A program made the translations under genes and the position numbers. 32,448 nt of DNA from Myxococcota bacterium. Lineage in GTDB: Bacteria > Myxococcota_A > UBA9160 > SZUA-336. Of the stretch, positions 4,376-12,977 are shown in pieces (positions within the stretch are counted from its first letter, which is position 1; every line of letters starts with the position of its first letter). The stretch lies in contig DATKAO010000128.1 in assembly GCA_035498015.1 (NCBI GenBank), positions 1 through 32,448 of the forward strand, in the 5' to 3' direction. The notes under the pieces are model-generated. The model saw nothing but the letters and a program-made list of their open reading frames with translations. It was not told the DNA's origin and searched no databases.

Positions 4376-4608
4376 CCCCGCCAGACGAGTGAGTCGCACG
4401 GCCCGACGCGCATGTCCGCTTCCGGCGTGTGCATCTTCGGCTGGAACCAAGCGACTGACTCCCCTGCGAGGGCGAACTACCGCTGAGACTTCGCGCGCCT
4501 GGCTCGCGAACACGCGCACGCCCTGCGCACCCCCTTACTACGTCAACCCGGCGGAGCGTTCCACCGAAACACTGAGGTGCGGGGGGTTTGCCCCCGGGGG
4601 AGTGCTCG
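4376..4608. promoter_or_regulatory. Divergent intergenic region upstream of the DUF11 cluster
   Basis: This 233-base region lies between the lipoate-ligase-like gene and the first DUF11 gene and should hold both promoters. I found no convincing -35/-10 pair. Its end is notable: G6 (4581-4586), TTTG, C5 (4591-4595) and G5 (4596-4600) follow one another. The first two runs can form a 5-bp hairpin. The last run begins the likely ribosome-binding site GGGGGAG (4596-4602), eight bases before the TTG start at 4609 if counted from the G tract's end. A hairpin so close to the Shine-Dalgarno sequence could affect initiation. If the lipoate-ligase-like gene starts at 4519, much of this region is coding. 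Confidence 0.4.
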
Positions 4609-5610
4609 TTGCCGAGGATCTTTGCCGATCCACGGAGTCGCCTTGCGCGCGTCGCATGGCTCTTTGTGTTCCAGCTCACTGCGAGTCACGCGTGGGCCCT
4701 GGGCACTCCTGCGGGCACTCCGGTCCCGAATACCGCCACGGTGAATTGGTCCGTCGGGCCTGGAACGAGCTTCAGCGCTTCCAGCACCACGCAGTTCGTG
4801 GTGGACGAGCTCGTGAACGTGGTCGTCACGCTGCAGACCGTGAGCCCGGTCGGTGTCCTCTCCCCCGACACCAACCGGCAGCTCACGTTCCTGATCAGCA
4901 ACACCGGCAACGGAACTGACTCGTACACGCTGCTGCTCGACCCGGTGCAGGGCGGCGACCAGTTCGACCCGACCAACGCGCGGCTGTATCTCGACAGCAA
5001 CGGGTCGACGGCCTACGAGCCGGGCGTCGACGCGCTCTACCAGCCGGGCGTGAACGACCCGACCATCGCCGCCGACGGCTCGCGCCTGGTGTTCGCCCTG
5101 CTCGACATCCCGGCGGGCCGGGTGAACGGCGACGTGGGCAACGTGATCGTGCGCGCCACGTCGAAGACCGGCACCGGCGCGGGCACGATCGTGATCGGCG
5201 GCGGCGACGCCGGCTCCGACGCCGTGATCGGCGCCGGCGCGGGCATGTCGACCGTGCTGGGCGGCTTCCTGGTCAGCGACCTCGCGGTCTCGATCGTGAA
5301 GACCGCGGTCGTGCTCGACCTGGGCGGCGGCACCACGCCCGCGCCCGGCTCGAGAATCACCTACACGCTGCAGGTCTCGGTCACCGGCACGGGCTCGGTC
5401 GCGAACCTGGTCGTGACCGACCCGCTGCCGCCGTTCACGAGTTACGTCGGGAGCTCGCTCCTGCTCAACGGCGGCGCGCTCAGCGACGCCGCGGACGCAG
5501 ACGCCGGCGACTTCGGCGGCACCACGGCGAATCAAGTCACCGTGCGACTCGGCACCGTCGCCGGCGGCTCAGTTCCGCAAACGATCCGCTTCGCGGTCAC
5601 GATCAACTAG
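4609..5610 (+). CDS. Secreted DUF11-repeat protein A (first gene of surface cluster)
   Basis: 333 residues from the TTG at 4609, which follows GGGGGAG; a TTG at 4588 is in frame. The signal peptide (RLARVAWLFVFQLTASHAWA) is probably cut after Ala30. The mature protein starts GTPAGTPVPNTATVNWSV. A middle module has a calcium-loop-like LDSNGSTAYEPGVDA. A C-terminal DUF11/TIGR01451 domain (SIVKTAVVLDL, then PAPGSRITYTLQVSVTG and VVTDPLPPFTSYV) ends in IRFAVTIN. DUF11 domains are Ig-like beta-sandwiches of cell-surface proteins. The gene is a diverged paralog of the one at 6195 and shares its PNTA-type start with the giant gene at 7446. No catalytic motif, sortase signal or membrane anchor is visible. 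Protein B starts 12 bases after the stop. Function unknown. Confidence 0.8.
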   Translation: MPRIFADPRSRLARVAWLFVFQLTASHAWALGTPAGTPVPNTATVNWSVGPGTSFSASSTTQFVVDELVNVVVTLQTVSPVGVLSPDTNRQLTFLISNTGNGTDSYTLLLDPVQGGDQFDPTNARLYLDSNGSTAYEPGVDALYQPGVNDPTIAADGSRLVFALLDIPAGRVNGDVGNVIVRATSKTGTGAGTIVIGGGDAGSDAVIGAGAGMSTVLGGFLVSDLAVSIVKTAVVLDLGGGTTPAPGSRITYTLQVSVTGTGSVANLVVTDPLPPFTSYVGSSLLLNGGALSDAADADAGDFGGTTANQVTVRLGTVAGGSVPQTIRFAVTIN

Positions 5611-5615
5611 GAGGG
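5609..5615 (+). promoter_or_regulatory. Ribosome-binding site of protein B
   Basis: AGGAGGG, a near-perfect Shine-Dalgarno sequence seven bases before the ATG at 5623. It overlaps the TAG stop of the preceding gene, which fixes the start of protein B and suggests coupled translation. Confidence 0.8.
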
Positions 5616-5622
5616 TACACCA

Positions 5623-6111
5623 ATGCGCAAGTCAGTCAGTCTCGCTCTCGCACTCACGCTGTTCGCGTGGGGCGCGCGCGCGGGCGCCGAGGCGACGGGG
5701 GTCGAGATCAAGGCCACCGCCGAGGTCGAAGTCAAGATCAAGGGCGACGACGGCAACGAGACCGTGCAGCGCCAGCCGGCCAAGAAGGTCCCGCCGGGCG
5801 GCTCGGTGATCTACACGCTGCGCGCCGAGAACAAGGGCTCGAAGCCCGCGGCCGACGTGGTCGTGACCGACCCGATCCCGGAGCACATGGACTACGTCGA
5901 TGGCTCCGCCAGCAGCGACGGCGCCCAGGTCACGTTCTCGACGGACGGCGGCAAGACGTTCCTGGCCAAGGAAAAGCTCGTGGTCAAGACGAAGGACGGC
6001 ACCAGCCGCGCCGCGCTGGCCTCGGAGCTGACGCACATCCGTTGGCGTTTCGAAAAACCCCTCGCCCCCGGTGAGTCGCGCTCGGTCGAGTTCCGCGCGC
6101 GCGTGGAGTGA
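5623..6111 (+). CDS. Secreted single-DUF11-domain protein B
   Basis: 162 residues. A clear signal peptide (RKSVSLALALTLFAWGARA) is followed by a short charged stretch rich in Lys and Glu (EIKATAEVEVKIKGDDGNE) and one DUF11 domain: VPPGGSVIYTLRAENKGSKP, VVTDPIPEHMDYVDGSAS, and an ending RSVEFRARVE. The central segment STDGGKTFLAKEKL is common in this family. There are no cysteines or membrane anchor, so it is probably periplasmic, secreted or surface-assembled. It sits between the paralogs A and C but lacks their NTA-type N-terminus and middle module, so it may be an adaptor or terminal subunit; that is inference. It is expressed from a strong Shine-Dalgarno site directly after gene A. Confidence 0.8.
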   Translation: MRKSVSLALALTLFAWGARAGAEATGVEIKATAEVEVKIKGDDGNETVQRQPAKKVPPGGSVIYTLRAENKGSKPAADVVVTDPIPEHMDYVDGSASSDGAQVTFSTDGGKTFLAKEKLVVKTKDGTSRAALASELTHIRWRFEKPLAPGESRSVEFRARVE

Positions 6112-6194
6112 GTCAAAAGAGTTCCCCCCCAAAGGAGGAAGCGCGCAGCACGCGCATCAAGTGCTGAGTCCGTAATACAGCAAGGAGTAGGTCA
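6112..6194 (+). promoter_or_regulatory. Leader between proteins B and C with C7 tract and an orphan Shine-Dalgarno
   Basis: 83 bases without a gene. It contains a C7 run (6124-6130) directly followed by AAAGGAGGA (6131-6139), a strong Shine-Dalgarno-like sequence with no start codon at normal spacing. GCGCG-CAGCA-CGCGC and AGCAC-GTGCT can form small, mutually exclusive stems. The working Shine-Dalgarno for protein C is AAGGAG at 6182-6187, seven bases before the ATG. The only reading frame after the orphan site is a four-codon GTG-TAA frame, which I do not call a gene. Confidence 0.4.
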
Positions 6195-7259
6195 ATGTTG
6201 AGGCACATGCAGACACGGATGGCAAGAACGCTTGCCATCGCTGCGCTCGTCGTGGGCGCAGCGAACGTGACGAAGGCGGCCGGAACGGCTGCCGGAGTCA
6301 CGATTTCCAACACGGCGAGCGTCAACTACAGCGTCAACGCGGTGGCCCAGCCGGCCATCACCTCGAACGCCGCCGACTTCGTGGTCGACCGGCGCGTCGA
6401 TCTGACGCTCACCGCCCCGGTCACGTACGTGAACGTGACTCCGGGCACCGCGGGGAACGCAATCCCCTTCACCCTGACCAATACCAGCAACGCGCCGTTG
6501 AACTTCACGCTGGCAGCGGCGAACAACGCGACCGACCCGTACGGCGGAACGGACAACTTCAATCCGACCGCACTGACGGTGTTCGTCGACGGCAACGGCA
6601 ACGGCACGTATCAGGCCGGTACCGATACCGCGACCACGGTCGATACCCTGGCGGCCGACGCGTCGATCACGGTGTTCATCGTCGGCACCATCCCGGGCGG
6701 CCAGGCCAACGCGAGCATCGCGGCGGTCACGATGACCGCGACCGGTCGTGAGACGACCGCCAACGGTGGCGGCGCGCTCACCAACGACTCCGGCGTTGCC
6801 GACACGGCCGCGACGGTGCAGACGGTGTTCGCGGACGGTGCGGGTGCAACCGACGCCGCCAACGACGCCGCGTTCTCCAGGACGGGCGCCTACTTCGTGC
6901 AGGGCGCCAACGTCTCGGTCGTGAAGTCCGAGGCGATCATCAGCGACCCCATCAACAACACCACCAACCCCAAGCACATTCCGGGTGCGATCGTCGAGTA
7001 CACGGTGACGGTGACCAACGCTGCGGCCTCGGCCGTTGCGGCGACCTCGATCAGCGTGACCGACGTGCTACCCGCCACCGTGGCGTTCCAGACCGGAACG
7101 TACGGCGCCGGCAACGGCATCCAGGTGGACGGCGTCGCGAAGACGAACGCCGCCGACGGCGACAATGGCTCGTTCGCTGCGGGAACGGTGACGGTGACCA
7201 TACCGTCGCTCGCGCCCAACACGTCGTCGGTGATCAAGTTCCGGGTAGCCGTGAACTGA
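6195..7259 (+). CDS. Secreted DUF11-repeat protein C (paralog of A)
   Basis: 354 residues starting at the ATG at 6195, supported by AAGGAG seven bases upstream. A signal peptide (RTLAIAALVVGAANVTKA) is followed by a mature start with ISNTASVNYSVN. Next come FVVDRRVDLTLTAP, an ISNTGN-like strand (FTLTNTSNAPLNF), a calcium-loop-like VDGNGNGTYQAGTD, and a C-terminal DUF11 domain (VSVVKSEAIISDP, IPGAIVEYTVTVTN, SVTDVLPATVAFQ) ending in IKFRVAVN. The order and several motifs match protein A along the whole length, so the two arose by duplication. The protein is rich in Thr, Ala and Asn and has no cysteine, as expected for an exported beta-rich surface protein. Function unknown; a structural or adhesive subunit is the simplest reading. 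Confidence 0.8.
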   Translation: MLRHMQTRMARTLAIAALVVGAANVTKAAGTAAGVTISNTASVNYSVNAVAQPAITSNAADFVVDRRVDLTLTAPVTYVNVTPGTAGNAIPFTLTNTSNAPLNFTLAAANNATDPYGGTDNFNPTALTVFVDGNGNGTYQAGTDTATTVDTLAADASITVFIVGTIPGGQANASIAAVTMTATGRETTANGGGALTNDSGVADTAATVQTVFADGAGATDAANDAAFSRTGAYFVQGANVSVVKSEAIISDPINNTTNPKHIPGAIVEYTVTVTNAAASAVAATSISVTDVLPATVAFQTGTYGAGNGIQVDGVAKTNAADGDNGSFAAGTVTVTIPSLAPNTSSVIKFRVAVN

Positions 7260-7322
7260 GTCACTGACCGAGCCCCCACAGTGAGTCCCCCCCTTCCCGC
7301 GCGGCGGCGCATGCTCCGCTCG

Positions 7323-7346
7323 CGCGCCGGCCTCCTGGCCGGTGCG
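7323..7346 (+). repeat. 10-bp hairpin in leader of giant gene
   Basis: Arms 7323-7332 and 7337-7346 pair over ten positions with one G-U at 7326/7343, around a TCCT loop (7333-7336). It is purely GC-rich and lacks a T tract. Confidence 0.7.
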
Positions 7347-7389
7347 ACGCGAGAGCTCTGCGCGCGCGCAGATGAGACGGGGAGCTCAC

Positions 7390-7411
7390 CGGACCGCGAC
7401 CGCGTGGTCCG
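7390..7411 (+). repeat. 9-bp hairpin in leader of giant gene
   Basis: Arms 7390-7398 and 7403-7411 pair over nine positions, with one G-U, around an ACCG tetraloop (7399-7402). It lies 16 bases before the start-codon hairpin. Confidence 0.65.
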
Positions 7412-7427
7412 CACGTTGTGCCTCAAC

Positions 7428-7466
7428 GAACCGGCTGCGGCGGGAATGACCCGTCGCAGCCGGTTC
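7428..7466 (+). promoter_or_regulatory. 17-bp hairpin with the ATG start codon in its loop
   Basis: The left arm 7428-7444 pairs with the right arm 7450-7466 over 17 positions. Sixteen are Watson-Crick and one is G-U (7440/7454). The five-base loop is AATGA (7445-7449), and the ATG at 7446-7448 is the best start of the giant beta-barrel protein. The weak Shine-Dalgarno-like GGCGGG is buried in the left arm, and the right arm encodes TRRSRF, the basic start of the signal peptide. The structure should restrict translation initiation unless something opens it. Possible openers are ribosomes arriving from upstream, a protein or RNA ligand, or temperature; which one is not visible. Confidence 0.75.
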
Positions 7467-10400
7467 CGCGAGGCGCTGGCGTTCCTGCTGCTCGCAGCCC
7501 TGACTCTGTCGGGGGCCGCGGGCGCGCAGACCCCGGTGGGAACGCCCATTCCGAATACGGCCTCCGCCACCTACGACGTCGGAGCGACCACGGGCATCGT
7601 TCGGCCTTCGAACACGCTCGTGATCACCACCGCCGCGTTCGGCACGGCCTCGAGCCTCGTGTTCATGCGCTATGCGCCGGGAGCGCCGGGGGCGACGACG
7701 TTCGCAGTCACGCCCACCCAGTGTTTCAATGGATCAGCGTTCAATCCGCTGCCGCCGCCCAACGCCTATGGCGGCGGAGCCATCGCGCTCGGCGCGGTCG
7801 ACCTGGTGACCACGCCCAGCTACCACCCGGGCGAGCCCGTGTTCGTGCGGCTGAACGACGCCAACCGGAACACCAATCCGGCGGCGATCGACAACGTGGT
7901 CGTGAACCTGGCGGCCGCGGGGGTGGGTGACGCCGAGCAGCTCGAGCTGCAGGAGACCGGGATCAACACCGGCGTCTTCGTGGGCTACATCCCGACCTCC
8001 GCGCCGCCGGCGCCCGCCAACAACTGCGTGCTGGCCGCGCCCGCGGGCCAGAACGTGACTGCCAGCTACGTCGACGCGACCAACGCCACGGACACCTCCT
8101 CCGCGTCGGCGCTGATCGATCCGGTGAGCCGCGTGTTCGATGCCACCAACGGCCACGCCGTGAACGGCGCGCAGGTGATCCTGATCGACGACGCCACGGG
8201 CCTGCCGGCCGCCGGCATCCGCGGCGACGACGGCGTGAGCAGCTTCCCGGCGACCCTGGTCACAGGCTCGCCGGTCACCGACGGCGGCGGCACCGCCTAC
8301 AACTTCGGCCCGGGCGGCTATCGCTACCCGGTGGTCCCGGCCGGCACCTACCACATCGTGGTGACTGCGCCGACGGGCTTCTTCTTCCCCTCGGTGACTC
8401 CGGACGCGACGCTGAACGCGCTGCCCGGCGGCCCCTTCCAGCTGGCAGCGGGCTCGCGCGGCGTGGCGTTCACGATCGCGGGCCCGAGCTTCCTGCTCGA
8501 CCTGCCGCTCGACACCGCGGCCGCGGGCGCCGGCTTCATCTCGATCCGCGCCAGCCGCGACGTGGTCTCGGTCGGCGACCACCTGCAGTACGACGTGCAG
8601 GTCACCAACCCCGGCGCCACCAGCGCGCCCGGCGGCGTCTCCGTCGTGATCAACCTGCCCGCTGGCTTCCGCTACACCCAGGGCAGCTCGCACATCGACG
8701 ACAAGTCGGTGCCCGACCCGGTGATCTCGAGCGACGGCCGCACGCTGACCTGGACGCTCCCGGTCGAGGCGCTGCCCATCGTGAGTCACATCCGCTTCAC
8801 CGCGGCCGTGGTCACCGGCGCCAAGGTCGGCGCGAACCGCACCAAGGCCACGGCCGTGGAGATCGGCGGCTCGCGCACGGCCAGCTCGTTCGCCGTGGTG
8901 CGCGTGCAGCAGGAGCTCCTGGGCACCAAGTCCTTCATCATGGGCCGGGTCTCGAAGGGCGCGTGCGACACGGCCGACTTCGGCGGCGAGCCGATGATCG
9001 GCGCGCGCGTCTTCCTCGAGGACGGCACTTACTCGGTCACGGACGAGAACGGCTTCTATCACTTCGAGGGCGTGCGCCCCGGCACTCACGTGGTGCAGCT
9101 CGACCTCGACAGCCTGCCCGCCTACGTGGAGCCGCTGCCCTGCCCCGACGCCGAGGGTCACGCCTTCGCCGGCCGGCCGTTCTCGCAGTTCGTCGACTTG
9201 CAGGGCGGCACCCTGTGGCGCAACGACTTCCGCGTGCAGCCGCGCCCGCAGAAGCACGGCGGCATCAACCAGCGCCTCGAGGCCCAGCGCGACGGCAACG
9301 TGATCCACTACCAGCTCGCGGTCGCGGGTCAGGGCGTGCCGGTGCGCAACCCGCGCGCGCTGGTCATGTTGCCCGACGGCGTGGAGTACGTGCCCGGCAG
9401 CGCCAAGAACCAGGGCGTCGCGCTCGAGCCGCAGGCCGACGGGAACGCACTCACCTTCCGGCTCGACGACGAGACCAACGCCGAGTGGACCGCCGACCTG
9501 ACGCTCGACGCCAAGGTCACCGCGGACAAGTCGGCGACGCTCGACACCAAGTCGGTGATCCTGTTCGAGACCCCGGCCGAGCCGGCCTCGAAGACGCCGG
9601 TCGCGACCAACCAGCTGATCGGTGACTCGAGCGCGGGCAGCGGACTGATCTCGGCCGACACACTCGGCCTGCGCCAGGGCGAGGTCTGGGACGAGCCGAA
9701 CGCGCCCGAGCCGGAGCCGCCCAAGCCGCAGGTCTACGGCAAGGACTGGATCGAGGCCGCGACGCCGGGCTTCGAGTGGCTCTCGCCCGAGGAAGGCTAC
9801 GCGCCGCCGATCGCGAGCGTGCACATCGCCATCAAGCACGTGCCGGGCACCTCGATCCGCCTGCTGCAGAACGGGGAGGAGGTCTCGAAGTTCAACTACG
9901 AGGGCACGTTCAAGAACCAGGCGCAGAGCGTCGCGCTGTCACGCTGGCGCGGCGTCGATCTCAAGGACGGCGACAACACCTTCGTGGCGATGGAGATCGA
10001 CGCGAACGGCGAAGTCGTGGACAAGATCGAGCGTCTCATCCACTACTCGGGCCCGCCGTTCCAGGCCGAGCTCGTGCCCGAGCAGTGTGTGCTCGCCGCC
10101 GACGGCCGCACCGTGCCGATCATCGCGGTGCGCTTCACCGACGAGGACGACAAGCCGGTGCGCGAAGGCGCGACCGGCAACTTCACGATCGACCCGCCGT
10201 ACGAGACCAAGCTCGACCCGAGCGTGAAGGAGCTGCGCCGCCAGGCCGGCCTCGCGCCCGAGAGCCCCTCCTACCGCATCGGCCCCGACGGCATCGCGCG
10301 CATCCCGCTCGCGCCGACCACCGTCTCGGGCAAGGCCACGCTGCACTTCATGCTCGCGGGCCGGCACGACAAGGAGCTGCACCCGTGGCTCGAGGCGCAG

Positions 10401-12977
10401 GCGCGTGACTGGATCGTGGTCGGCCTGACCGGCGGCACGCTCGCTCACCAGGACGTGGCGGACCACATGGAAGGCTTCACGGGTGCGCCCGACAACGGCT
10501 TCCAGCTCGACAACGGCACCGCCCTGTTCGCCAAGGGCCGCATCAAGGGCGACTGGCTGCTCACGGCTTCCTACGACTCACAGCGCGAGCACAGCGAGTC
10601 GGACGACCTGTTCCGCAAGGCGCTCGACGGCGGCATCGACCCGAACCAGTACTACACGCTGTACGGAGACACGAGCACGCAGGGCTTCGAGGCCCCGAGC
10701 CAGCGGCCGCTGTATCTCAAGCTCGAGCGCAAGCAGTTCTTCGCGCTGTTCGGCGACTACACCACCGGGCTCACCGCCACCGAGCTCGGACGCTACAACC
10801 GCAGCCTGAACGGCCTGCACAGCGAGTTCGAGAGCGATCACTTCAGCTTCTCGGCCTTCGGCACCGACACCAACCAGGCGTTCGTGCGCGACGAGATCCG
10901 CGGCGACGGCACCTCGGGCCTGTACCAGCTGTCGCGCCGCTCGATCGTGGTGAACAGCGAGAAGGTGCGCATCGAGACGCGCGACCGCTTCCGCTCCGAG
11001 ATGGTGCTCACCACGGCGCCGCAGGCCCGCTACGTCGACTACAACATCGACTACCAGATGGGCACGATCTTCTTCAAGCAGCCCATCCCGAGTCACGGCG
11101 AAGGCTTCAACCCGCTGTTCATCGTGGTCGAGTACGAGTCCGACGATTCGACCGACCAGCGTTTCTCCGGCGGCGGCCGCGGCGCGGTGAAGCTGCTCGA
11201 CGACAAGGTCGAGGTCGGCTCGACCATGATCCACGAGGGCACCGAGGGCCGGACCTCGAGCCTGTACGGCGGCGACGTGCGCGTCGACCTCGACCCCTCG
11301 ACGCGCTTCCGCGGCGAATATGCGGCGACTCACTCGGCGCTGCTCGACCCCAACCAGGACGGCCAGGGCGGCGCGTGGCTCGCCGAGCTGACCCGCCGCG
11401 ACGCGAGCCTCGACACGCGCGCCTACTTCCGCGAGCAGCAGTCGGGCTTCGGCGTCGGCCAGCAGGCCGCGAGCGAGACCGCCACGCGCAAGTACGGGCT
11501 CGACGCGCGCTACCTGTTCGACCCGCAGTGGAACCTGCTCGGCCAGGCGTTCCGCGAGACCGACCTGAACTCACCCGCGACGCGCGACGTGTTCGAGAGC
11601 CGCGTCGAGCACCACGACGGTCCGCTCGGCGCCTACGGCGGCTTCCGCTGGGCGCATGACCAGCTGATCGACGGCACCAGCGCGACCGCTCCACAGCTGC
11701 TTGGCGGCGCGAGCTACATGTTCCTCGACAACCGCCTGAAGCTGCGCGGAGACACCGAGCTCTCGCTGGGCGGGAGTGACAGCCTCGAGTTCCCGACGCG
11801 GCTGCTGGTCGGCGCCGACTACGAGCTCCTGCCGCAGCTCACCGTGTTCGGCGAGGAAGAGCTCGCGCTCGCCTCCGACCGCAGCGTGACCTCTACGCGC
11901 GTCGGGCTCAAGACCAGCCCGTGGCAGGGCAGCCAGATGACCGCGGCGCTGGGCCAGCGGGCCGAGCAGGACGCGACCCGGCTGTTCACCACGCTGGGCG
12001 CCTTGCAGACCTTCCAGCTCACCGACGCGTGGAGCGTGGACTTCGCGGTCGACAACTCGATCACGTTGCACGGGCAGGACGTGCCCGCGGGCGAGATCTC
12101 GCCCTTCGCCGACAAGCAGCCGGTGGCGAACGGCCTGACCGGTGACCCGGGCGGCGACGACTTCACGTCGGTGTCGCTCGGCACCACCTATTCGCAGAAG
12201 CTCTGGGCCGCGAACCTGAAGATCGAGACACGCCAGGGCAGCGCGCAGGACAAGTGGGGCGTCACCGCGGGCGCGTACCGCCAGCTCGCCGACGGCGTGG
12301 GCATCGCTCTGCGCGCCGAGTTCTTCGACATGAGCGGCACGGCCTCGCCGATCGGCGGGGGCGCCACGCCGACCTACTCGACGTCGTTCGACTCCACCAC
12401 CACCAGCACGACCAGCTCGAGCCTGTCTTCCCTGTACGGCGTGCAGTCACTCGGCCGGCTGCGCTTCTCGGCGGTCTACCGCCCGGTGGGCAGCCGCTTC
12501 ATCCTGCTCGACTCGACCGAGTTCCGCCGCGAGCGCCTCGACGGCGACGTGTTCGGCAGCATGTCGAACCGCATCATCAACAACGTGAACCTGAACGTGA
12601 AGCTCGACCGCGCGACGCAGCTCTCGTTCCAGTACGGCGCCAAGTATCTGCTCGAGAACGTCGACAGCCAGAACCTGTCCGGCTACACCGACGTGGCGGG
12701 CGTCGAGCTGCGGCGCGACCTGTGGGGCGGCTTCGACATCGGCACGCGCGTCGGCCTGCGCCACTCGTACTCCGACGGCTCGGTGAACCAGCTGTACAGC
12801 GCGTCGCTGGGCTACGTGGTCATGAAGAACATGTGGGTCCAGGCCGGCTACAACTTCAGCGGCTACAAGGACTCGGACTTCTCGCGCCAGGACTGGACGG
12901 CGCAGGGCCCGTTCATCTCGTTCAAGTACAAGTTCGACCAGCAGACCGTGAAGGACCTGCTGAATTGGGGCGAGTGA
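7446..12977 (+). CDS. Giant outer-membrane beta-barrel protein with DUF11 and SdrD-B-like domains
   Basis: 1843 residues from the ATG at 7446. Signal peptide about 1-28 (FREALAFLLLAALTLSGAAG), then TPVGTPIPNTASATYDVG, matching the mature starts of proteins A and C. A DUF11 domain lies near residues 363-450 (SVGDHLQYDVQVTNPG). An SdrD-B/carboxypeptidase-regulatory-like module lies near 497-545 (GEPMIGARVFLEDGTYSVTD). A second DUF11-like region lies near 605-690. A Pro/Glu-rich linker near 755 (EPNAPEPEPPKPQ) and Ig-like strands follow. From about residue 1005 alternating amphipathic strands with aromatic girdles run to the end (LYLKLERKQFFALFGDYTTG), with a Ser/Thr-rich loop near 1645. The last strand FISFKYKF resembles a BAM signal. 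A barrel of over 800 residues is far larger than autotransporter barrels. Substrate, partners and topology are unknown. Confidence 0.8.
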   Translation: MTRRSRFREALAFLLLAALTLSGAAGAQTPVGTPIPNTASATYDVGATTGIVRPSNTLVITTAAFGTASSLVFMRYAPGAPGATTFAVTPTQCFNGSAFNPLPPPNAYGGGAIALGAVDLVTTPSYHPGEPVFVRLNDANRNTNPAAIDNVVVNLAAAGVGDAEQLELQETGINTGVFVGYIPTSAPPAPANNCVLAAPAGQNVTASYVDATNATDTSSASALIDPVSRVFDATNGHAVNGAQVILIDDATGLPAAGIRGDDGVSSFPATLVTGSPVTDGGGTAYNFGPGGYRYPVVPAGTYHIVVTAPTGFFFPSVTPDATLNALPGGPFQLAAGSRGVAFTIAGPSFLLDLPLDTAAAGAGFISIRASRDVVSVGDHLQYDVQVTNPGATSAPGGVSVVINLPAGFRYTQGSSHIDDKSVPDPVISSDGRTLTWTLPVEALPIVSHIRFTAAVVTGAKVGANRTKATAVEIGGSRTASSFAVVRVQQELLGTKSFIMGRVSKGACDTADFGGEPMIGARVFLEDGTYSVTDENGFYHFEGVRPGTHVVQLDLDSLPAYVEPLPCPDAEGHAFAGRPFSQFVDLQGGTLWRNDFRVQPRPQKHGGINQRLEAQRDGNVIHYQLAVAGQGVPVRNPRALVMLPDGVEYVPGSAKNQGVALEPQADGNALTFRLDDETNAEWTADLTLDAKVTADKSATLDTKSVILFETPAEPASKTPVATNQLIGDSSAGSGLISADTLGLRQGEVWDEPNAPEPEPPKPQVYGKDWIEAATPGFEWLSPEEGYAPPIASVHIAIKHVPGTSIRLLQNGEEVSKFNYEGTFKNQAQSVALSRWRGVDLKDGDNTFVAMEIDANGEVVDKIERLIHYSGPPFQAELVPEQCVLAADGRTVPIIAVRFTDEDDKPVREGATGNFTIDPPYETKLDPSVKELRRQAGLAPESPSYRIGPDGIARIPLAPTTVSGKATLHFMLAGRHDKELHPWLEAQARDWIVVGLTGGTLAHQDVADHMEGFTGAPDNGFQLDNGTALFAKGRIKGDWLLTASYDSQREHSESDDLFRKALDGGIDPNQYYTLYGDTSTQGFEAPSQRPLYLKLERKQFFALFGDYTTGLTATELGRYNRSLNGLHSEFESDHFSFSAFGTDTNQAFVRDEIRGDGTSGLYQLSRRSIVVNSEKVRIETRDRFRSEMVLTTAPQARYVDYNIDYQMGTIFFKQPIPSHGEGFNPLFIVVEYESDDSTDQRFSGGGRGAVKLLDDKVEVGSTMIHEGTEGRTSSLYGGDVRVDLDPSTRFRGEYAATHSALLDPNQDGQGGAWLAELTRRDASLDTRAYFREQQSGFGVGQQAASETATRKYGLDARYLFDPQWNLLGQAFRETDLNSPATRDVFESRVEHHDGPLGAYGGFRWAHDQLIDGTSATAPQLLGGASYMFLDNRLKLRGDTELSLGGSDSLEFPTRLLVGADYELLPQLTVFGEEELALASDRSVTSTRVGLKTSPWQGSQMTAALGQRAEQDATRLFTTLGALQTFQLTDAWSVDFAVDNSITLHGQDVPAGEISPFADKQPVANGLTGDPGGDDFTSVSLGTTYSQKLWAANLKIETRQGSAQDKWGVTAGAYRQLADGVGIALRAEFFDMSGTASPIGGGATPTYSTSFDSTTTSTTSSSLSSLYGVQSLGRLRFSAVYRPVGSRFILLDSTEFRRERLDGDVFGSMSNRIINNVNLNVKLDRATQLSFQYGAKYLLENVDSQNLSGYTDVAGVELRRDLWGGFDIGTRVGLRHSYSDGSVNQLYSASLGYVVMKNMWVQAGYNFSGYKDSDFSRQDWTAQGPFISFKYKFDQQTVKDLLNWGE

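Follow-up and report, generated by a model that had tools for sequence, protein, structure and literature searches.

What might be built by four consecutive genes that all encode secreted proteins with DUF11 domains, the last of them 1843 aa long? The genes, here called A to D, lie on contig C128 of a Myxococcota genome that was probably assembled from a metagenome (4.5 Mb in 257 contigs, with a completeness of 95%); this contig of 32,448 nt is the window analysed here. The original prediction had seen in them a candidate surface system, in which a start motif shared by A, C and D could act as a docking strand and D as an outer-membrane platform. In the following, donor means the closing beta-hairpin of DUF11 when it is detached from the rest of the domain, and acceptor means a DUF11 domain that lacks it; both roles are proposed ones. 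The features of the locus are as follows.

4609..5610, plus strand: gene A, secreted subunit with putative donor and acceptor, paralog of C
4699..4830, plus strand: A, putative N-terminal donor segment with DUF11-tail hairpin (LGTPAGTPVPNTATVNWSV...VVVT)
5275..5607, plus strand: A, putative acceptor, C-terminal DUF11 without last hairpin, ends at profile state 88
5623..6111, plus strand: gene B, small secreted subunit, putative acceptor only, without donor hairpin
5779..6108, plus strand: B, C-terminal DUF11 without last hairpin, ends at profile state 90
6195..7259, plus strand: gene C, secreted subunit with putative donor and acceptor
6279..6413, plus strand: C, putative N-terminal donor segment with DUF11-tail hairpin (AGTAAGVTISNTASVNYSV...TLT)
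6903..7256, plus strand: C, putative acceptor, C-terminal DUF11 without last hairpin, ends at profile state 90
7446..12977, plus strand: gene D, 1843 aa, with putative N-terminal donor, passenger domains and C-terminal barrel-like region
7530..7631, plus strand: D, putative N-terminal donor hairpin (TPVGTPIPNTASATYDV...VITT)
8535..8915, plus strand: D, internal DUF11, complete, with its own tail
8982..9101, plus strand: D, CarboxypepD_reg module (SdrD_B-like; Pfam)
9753..10475, plus strand: D, conserved pre-barrel region from the alignment, two probable Ig-like domains (by eye)
10488..12974, plus strand: D, C-terminal region resembling a barrel; plug-like insertion near 10893-11141

The coordinates bear out the prediction of four consecutive plus-strand genes for secreted DUF11 proteins. 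A hydrophobic signal peptide, as judged by eye, is present at the N-terminus of all four proteins, and TIGR01451, the NCBIfam model of the DUF11 repeat, scores over its cut-off in each of them. The Pfam DUF11 model is above its cut-off in B (3.9e-9) and C (6.7e-6); A, at 22.8 bits, and D, at 23.8 bits, fall slightly short of the required 24.6 bits. A genome-wide search found DUF11 confined to A-D in the source genome. A and C are indeed paralogs along their length, with about 27-33% identity. The SdrD-B-like module claimed for D is present, and CarboxypepD_reg (32.4 bits against a cut-off of 32.3) is the more fitting name for it, as SdrD_B scores below its cut-off. A begins with a TTG codon at 4609, in a frame already open from a TTG at 4588; D begins with an ATG at 7446, in a frame likewise open from a GTG at 7281, 55 codons upstream. 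In relatives of D (loci L040-L044), 40-50 residues precede the signal-peptide core in the manner of an extended signal peptide, and MHGPRR is common to three of them. Immediately 5' of the A start codon lies a GC-rich inverted repeat (4577-4600, cggggggtttgcccccggggg), which has no Rfam match; neither the window as a whole nor the region 5' of A contained an Rfam element.

The existence of the start motif (P/S)NTA(S/T)xx(Y/W), described earlier as following directly on the signal peptides of A, C and D, was confirmed, and relatives conserve it: residue N39 of C is invariant in 10 of 10 A/C proteins, and D proteins start with the consensus GTxIxNTAxxTY. When C-terminal DUF11 domains were joined to the N-terminal hairpins and scored with the Pfam DUF11 model, shuffled ends scored equally well. 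After this concatenation had given no answer, a profile of 154 states (tail hairpin at 91-125), built from complete repeats of giant proteins, of protein X of relatives (see below) and of other multi-DUF11 proteins, was chosen as a second test. In single-sequence searches with this profile, the C-terminal DUF11 stops at state 86-95, no more than five residues from the C-terminus, in 29 of the 41 cluster subunits. The same truncation appears in the X/E group by profile-profile comparison (13-91 of 126), and the A/C alignment matches the complete DUF11 of D (E=4e-11) over 13-91 of 126, up to its own end. No clear truncated C-terminal DUF11 was seen in the first-gene proteins of the cyanobacterial loci.

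When the N-terminal segment common to A, C and D is moved stepwise over the whole DUF11 profile, it matches the tail only (states 93-128, P=8e-6, probability 84%); segments falling short of the tail strand have P values of at least 0.004. A matrix of 12 columns, made from 74 tails of complete DUF11 repeats, finds its best site at the N-terminal motif in 11 of 14 A/C proteins and 7 of 10 D proteins, and finds no donor site in B. Three proteins of either group score best elsewhere; in two of the three D proteins, the motif is outscored by the tail of the complete DUF11 within the same protein. A short HMM of the tail lacked the power to detect it in most individual sequences, and the direct profile-profile comparison of the hairpin with the DUF11 of D gave a weak match that was off register. 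In a control set of 11 DUF11 proteins, taken from class loci that lack a D barrel, neither a truncated DUF11 end (0/11) nor the N-terminal strand (0/11) was found. Taken together, these comparisons support the view that the start motif of A, C and D represents the detached last beta-hairpin of DUF11.

Natural fusions bear on the same point. In two genomes (G009 and G054), the D protein opens with a C-like unit whose DUF11 continues straight into the D hairpin, the junction reading FDVRV-LSLASG-PITNTGEIRFDDG...ISNSVTLIV. The fused chain aligns nearly gap-free to the end of C and the start of D of the window, with a nearly equal spacing of 10-11 residues. In addition, subunits of 880 residues in G054 and Pacificitalea consist of tandem units, in which the last DUF11 alone is truncated; the hairpin of the next unit, following in the same chain, makes the inner DUF11 complete. 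Both the C-D and the unit-unit fusions display in cis the pairing that we propose in trans.

If the start motif is the tail of DUF11 and the DUF11 of the subunits ends just before it, then A and C would each be donor and acceptor, B an acceptor and D a donor. Our main reading is that A, B, C and D form a surface fibre that is anchored in the outer membrane and joined by split DUF11 domains. The hairpin directly after the signal peptide of A, C and D would be the donor; A, B and C (in relatives also X and E) would provide the acceptor, their C-terminal DUF11 being without its last beta-hairpin; and this C-terminal domain would be filled by the hairpin of another protein. The shaft would consist of A and C; B, or X or E in relatives, as acceptor only, would form the chain end, tip or cap; and D, as donor only, would be the base, held by its C-terminal barrel. 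Since the source genome has three donors (A, C and D) and three acceptors (A, B and C), every DUF11 fold would be closed in a linear arrangement D-(C,A)-B. We assign a probability of roughly 0.55 to a head-to-tail fibre formed by split-DUF11 complementation and anchored by D. The conserved operon, the sequence identity of the hairpin, the truncation point and the C-D and unit-unit fusions are observed directly. The docking role foreseen for the start motif is supported as far as sequence reaches, by the hairpin match, the truncated acceptors and the fusions; from these, we infer the contact between hairpin and DUF11 and the polymerisation. An AlphaFold model of C from three input sequences had a pLDDT of 54 (34-43 at the N-terminus) and carries no statement on docking, and a Foldseek search with it returned generic beta-sandwich matches only.

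The C-terminal region of D, about 830 residues, belongs to a single alignable beta-rich family, which extends into Proteobacteria, cyanobacteria and, weakly, Deinococcus. We read it as a putative barrel because of its strand pattern and its C-terminal endings of the OMP type: short forms end in ...FFNMAAKF or ...FVNLIAKF, and have F, Y or L at the close of the last strand. Of the C-terminal barrel of over 800 residues in the original prediction, the length and the beta-rich nature were recovered, and the strands and endings suggest the fold; an AlphaFold model of the region from two input sequences had a pLDDT of 30, too poor to show a barrel. D is likely to be an outer-membrane platform; its N-terminus would face outward, the fibre would lie at the surface, and D may also pass subunits across the membrane as their export route. 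The plug-like insertion prompted the idea that the barrel of D is an usher, which was rejected at a probability of 0.3% in hhalign comparisons of the D barrel family with five ushers of E. coli K-12, namely FimD, HtrE, YehB, ElfC and SfmD. A PDB sequence search with D returned nothing relevant, and phage records held no match to D. Barrels of the D type that accompany giant DUF11/SdrD proteins are annotated 'TonB-dependent receptor' in Devosia, Roseovarius, Nitratireductor and Pelagibacterium (including loci L081 and L123).

Among 91 genomes of the class, 13 encode a full-type D protein. The A-B-C-D order, whose recurrence in relatives had been named as a check on the system, is found in seven of the class genomes (G000, G001, G006, G019, G034, G040 and G074; a contig edge cuts A in G001, and D runs onto another contig in G006). 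B at full strength occurs in 9 of the 13 D-carrying and none of the 78 D-less genomes (p=9e-10), and A/C proteins in 8 of the 13 and none of the 78 (p=1.5e-8), both p values ignoring relatedness. A DUF11 subunit partner adjoins D or is fused to it at all 11 D loci with readable flanks, a count that leaves out G064 and G075, where the contig ends right at D. Relatives may add a protein X upstream or a protein E downstream, the latter of up to 2157 aa with beta-helix and GEVED. In two members of the class examined in detail, passenger and barrel are fused, as single ORFs with DUF11 repeats and a C-terminal D-type barrel (L117, 4841-16126, 3761 aa; L118, 3290-18727, 5145 aa). Similarly long frames with barrel matches were observed in G023, G047, G077 and G078. 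Beyond the class, the genomes of the phylum that were sampled yielded no B. These distributions support A-D as a conserved system, which is seemingly undescribed.

Related loci outside the class vary in their subunits. Ponticaulis has B-C-D-E, Novosphingobium has A-B-C-D with an E-like gene and frameshifts, Pacificitalea has B, the 880-aa tandem subunit and D, and plasmid p4 of Acinetobacter haemolyticus has small DUF11 genes, D, an OmpA-type protein and another DUF11 protein. The E protein of Ponticaulis (L030, 15166-21639; 2157 aa), with right-handed beta-helix parts, a GEVED domain and a DUF11-type end, is a candidate tip adhesin. On the THN1 plasmid of Novosphingobium (L078, 10550-16657), C and D are split into several frames, by sequencing error or decay. 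In Synechococcus NIES-970 and Kovacikia, a first-gene protein and B are followed by a D that is split into passenger and barrel, and by a large last protein. In Sinorhizobium, Devosia, Roseovarius and Eleftheria, a giant DUF11/SdrD passenger precedes a separate barrel protein. The passengers of the split forms stop shortly past the DUF11-CarboxypepD module, and D would therefore be passenger and barrel in one chain. D homologs standing alone, without A-C, had been named as evidence that would speak against the system; distant D-type barrels without A-C do exist, but a giant DUF11/SdrD passenger is then adjacent or fused. On a plasmid of Deinococcus radiodurans (L124, 3923-12226), DUF11 genes whose products start like A/C precede the gene of a 1111-aa protein with a weak D-barrel match (7.5e-14), and this may be a divergent form of the A-D system. 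In Eleftheria terrae (L122, 1-3031), the passenger-barrel pair lies directly 3' of genes for FecR-domain and CHASE2-domain proteins, a possible regulatory link. One set of Devosia and Campylobacterales loci was rejected as relatives of D, having no barrel match.

The halves of the DUF11 fold could be joined in another way. Both are present in A and in C, and the N-terminal hairpin might fold onto the C-terminal DUF11 of its own protein, giving a permuted domain and closed monomers that associate with D by other means. TasA has been described as a self-completing monomer, and the subunit of archaeal threads is predicted to form one (PMC9715654); self-completion of A and C could count against the fibre reading. 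However, B and E have an acceptor without a donor and D a donor without a truncated acceptor, and in the fusions the D hairpin completes the DUF11 of C while C retains its own N-terminal hairpin. Closed monomers as the whole explanation thus look quite improbable; the self-completed state may still serve to store these subunits.

No fibre is needed if D acts as a translocon for A, B, C, X and E, with their truncated C-terminal DUF11 as the export signal, in the manner of the C-terminal domains of type IX secretion. Such a system would suit the common C-terminal end of these diverse neighbours, the plug-like insertion of the barrel, and the fusion or adjacency of passenger and barrel, but it leaves the start hairpin of A, C and D and the tandem and C-D fusions unexplained, and we consider it unlikely; export by D is compatible with fibre formation. 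Alternatively, A-D might be ordinary co-expressed envelope proteins, with the start motif and the C-terminal ends as mere domain edges, considering that envelope proteins often contain DUF11 (PMC5749712), that the domain is present in 41 of the 91 class genomes, and that the contact is argued from sequence. Against this stand the strict gene order and co-occurrence, the equal truncation point in many subunits, the natural fusions, and the absence of both features from the 11 control proteins, which leave this explanation very little probability.

A fibre of split DUF11 domains would resemble the chaperone-usher pili (type 1, P and archaic) in that an incomplete Ig-like fold is completed by the N-terminal extension of the next subunit, with an outer-membrane barrel at the base and a donor-less subunit at the tip. 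In contrast to these pili, in which the pilin lacks one strand, DUF11 lacks its last hairpin, and the anchor D itself bears a donor. The original prediction had noted the absence of chaperone, usher and sortase, and this holds genome-wide: the source genome has neither the usher family PF00577 nor the PapD-type chaperone family PF00345, both of which matched in the E. coli positive control, nor the sortase family PF04203, which matched in positive controls from three Gram-positives. The two marks of a donor-strand fibre, an incomplete acceptor and an N-terminal donor, are both recognisable here at the level of sequence (truncation near state 90, hairpin match and fusions). Archaeal threads (Saci_0406/0405) are head-to-tail donor-strand fibres without a known chaperone, capped by a donor-only protein (PMC9715654). 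The subunits of F-ENA spore appendages dock through N-terminal hooks (PMC11952670). Like these threads, TasA and F-ENA, the A-D chain would run head-to-tail without a PapD/usher pair, each subunit being docked to the adjacent one by an N-terminal strand or hook; unlike A-D, they have other folds and no outer-membrane barrel anchor. The DUF11 of spore-appendage proteins has been reported merely as a repeat domain (PMC11952670, PMC5749712).

With type V secretion, D shares a large passenger and a C-terminal barrel in one protein or in neighbouring genes, as seen in the fused (L117, L118) and split (L079, L081, L122, L123) forms. It differs in its barrel region of about 830 residues, its plug-like insertion and its extra DUF11 subunits, and no autotransporter or TpsB/FhaC barrel families were among its Pfam/NCBIfam hits at E<=1. 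Type IX secretion likewise combines a barrel with a plug-like module and cargo with a common C-terminal Ig-like domain. The plug-like DYxIDYxxGxIxF module of D may resemble the type IX (SprA) module, which we take as a lead only, and the barrel region is far smaller than SprA. No type IX C-terminal domain models were among the NCBIfam hits of A-D, and SprA_N gave no match in a search in which no positive control matched either. The giant DUF11/SdrD_B proteins with a barrel partner in Devosia, Sinorhizobium and Roseovarius share with D the barrel family and the DUF11-CarboxypepD junction; they have one giant passenger, whereas A-D has small split-domain subunits. No characterisation of these giant systems was found, and their barrel is often annotated as a TonB-dependent receptor. 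A link to T11SS was rejected, having arisen because the name DUF1194 begins with DUF11.

No description of the A-D cluster was found in the literature covered, which mostly excludes subscription journals and bioRxiv. We suggest tentatively, at somewhat short of even odds, that A-D represents a new class of bacterial surface fibre in several phyla, which would be chaperone-free, assembled head to tail by swapping of the last DUF11 hairpin, ordered along the chain as along the genes, and based on D, with its N-terminus as the first donor and its dedicated barrel as anchor and possible exporter. DUF11 is a very common prokaryotic envelope domain of unknown function, and the A-D locus offers it a testable role as a splittable fold that joins subunits. 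If this reading is true, Gram-negative bacteria would possess donor-strand fibres without PapD chaperones or ushers and with a barrel protein as base, and such fibres would range across Alpha- and Gammaproteobacteria to cyanobacteria. Meanwhile, the D barrel family, often labelled as TonB-dependent receptors, would be the anchor or exporter of giant surface proteins.
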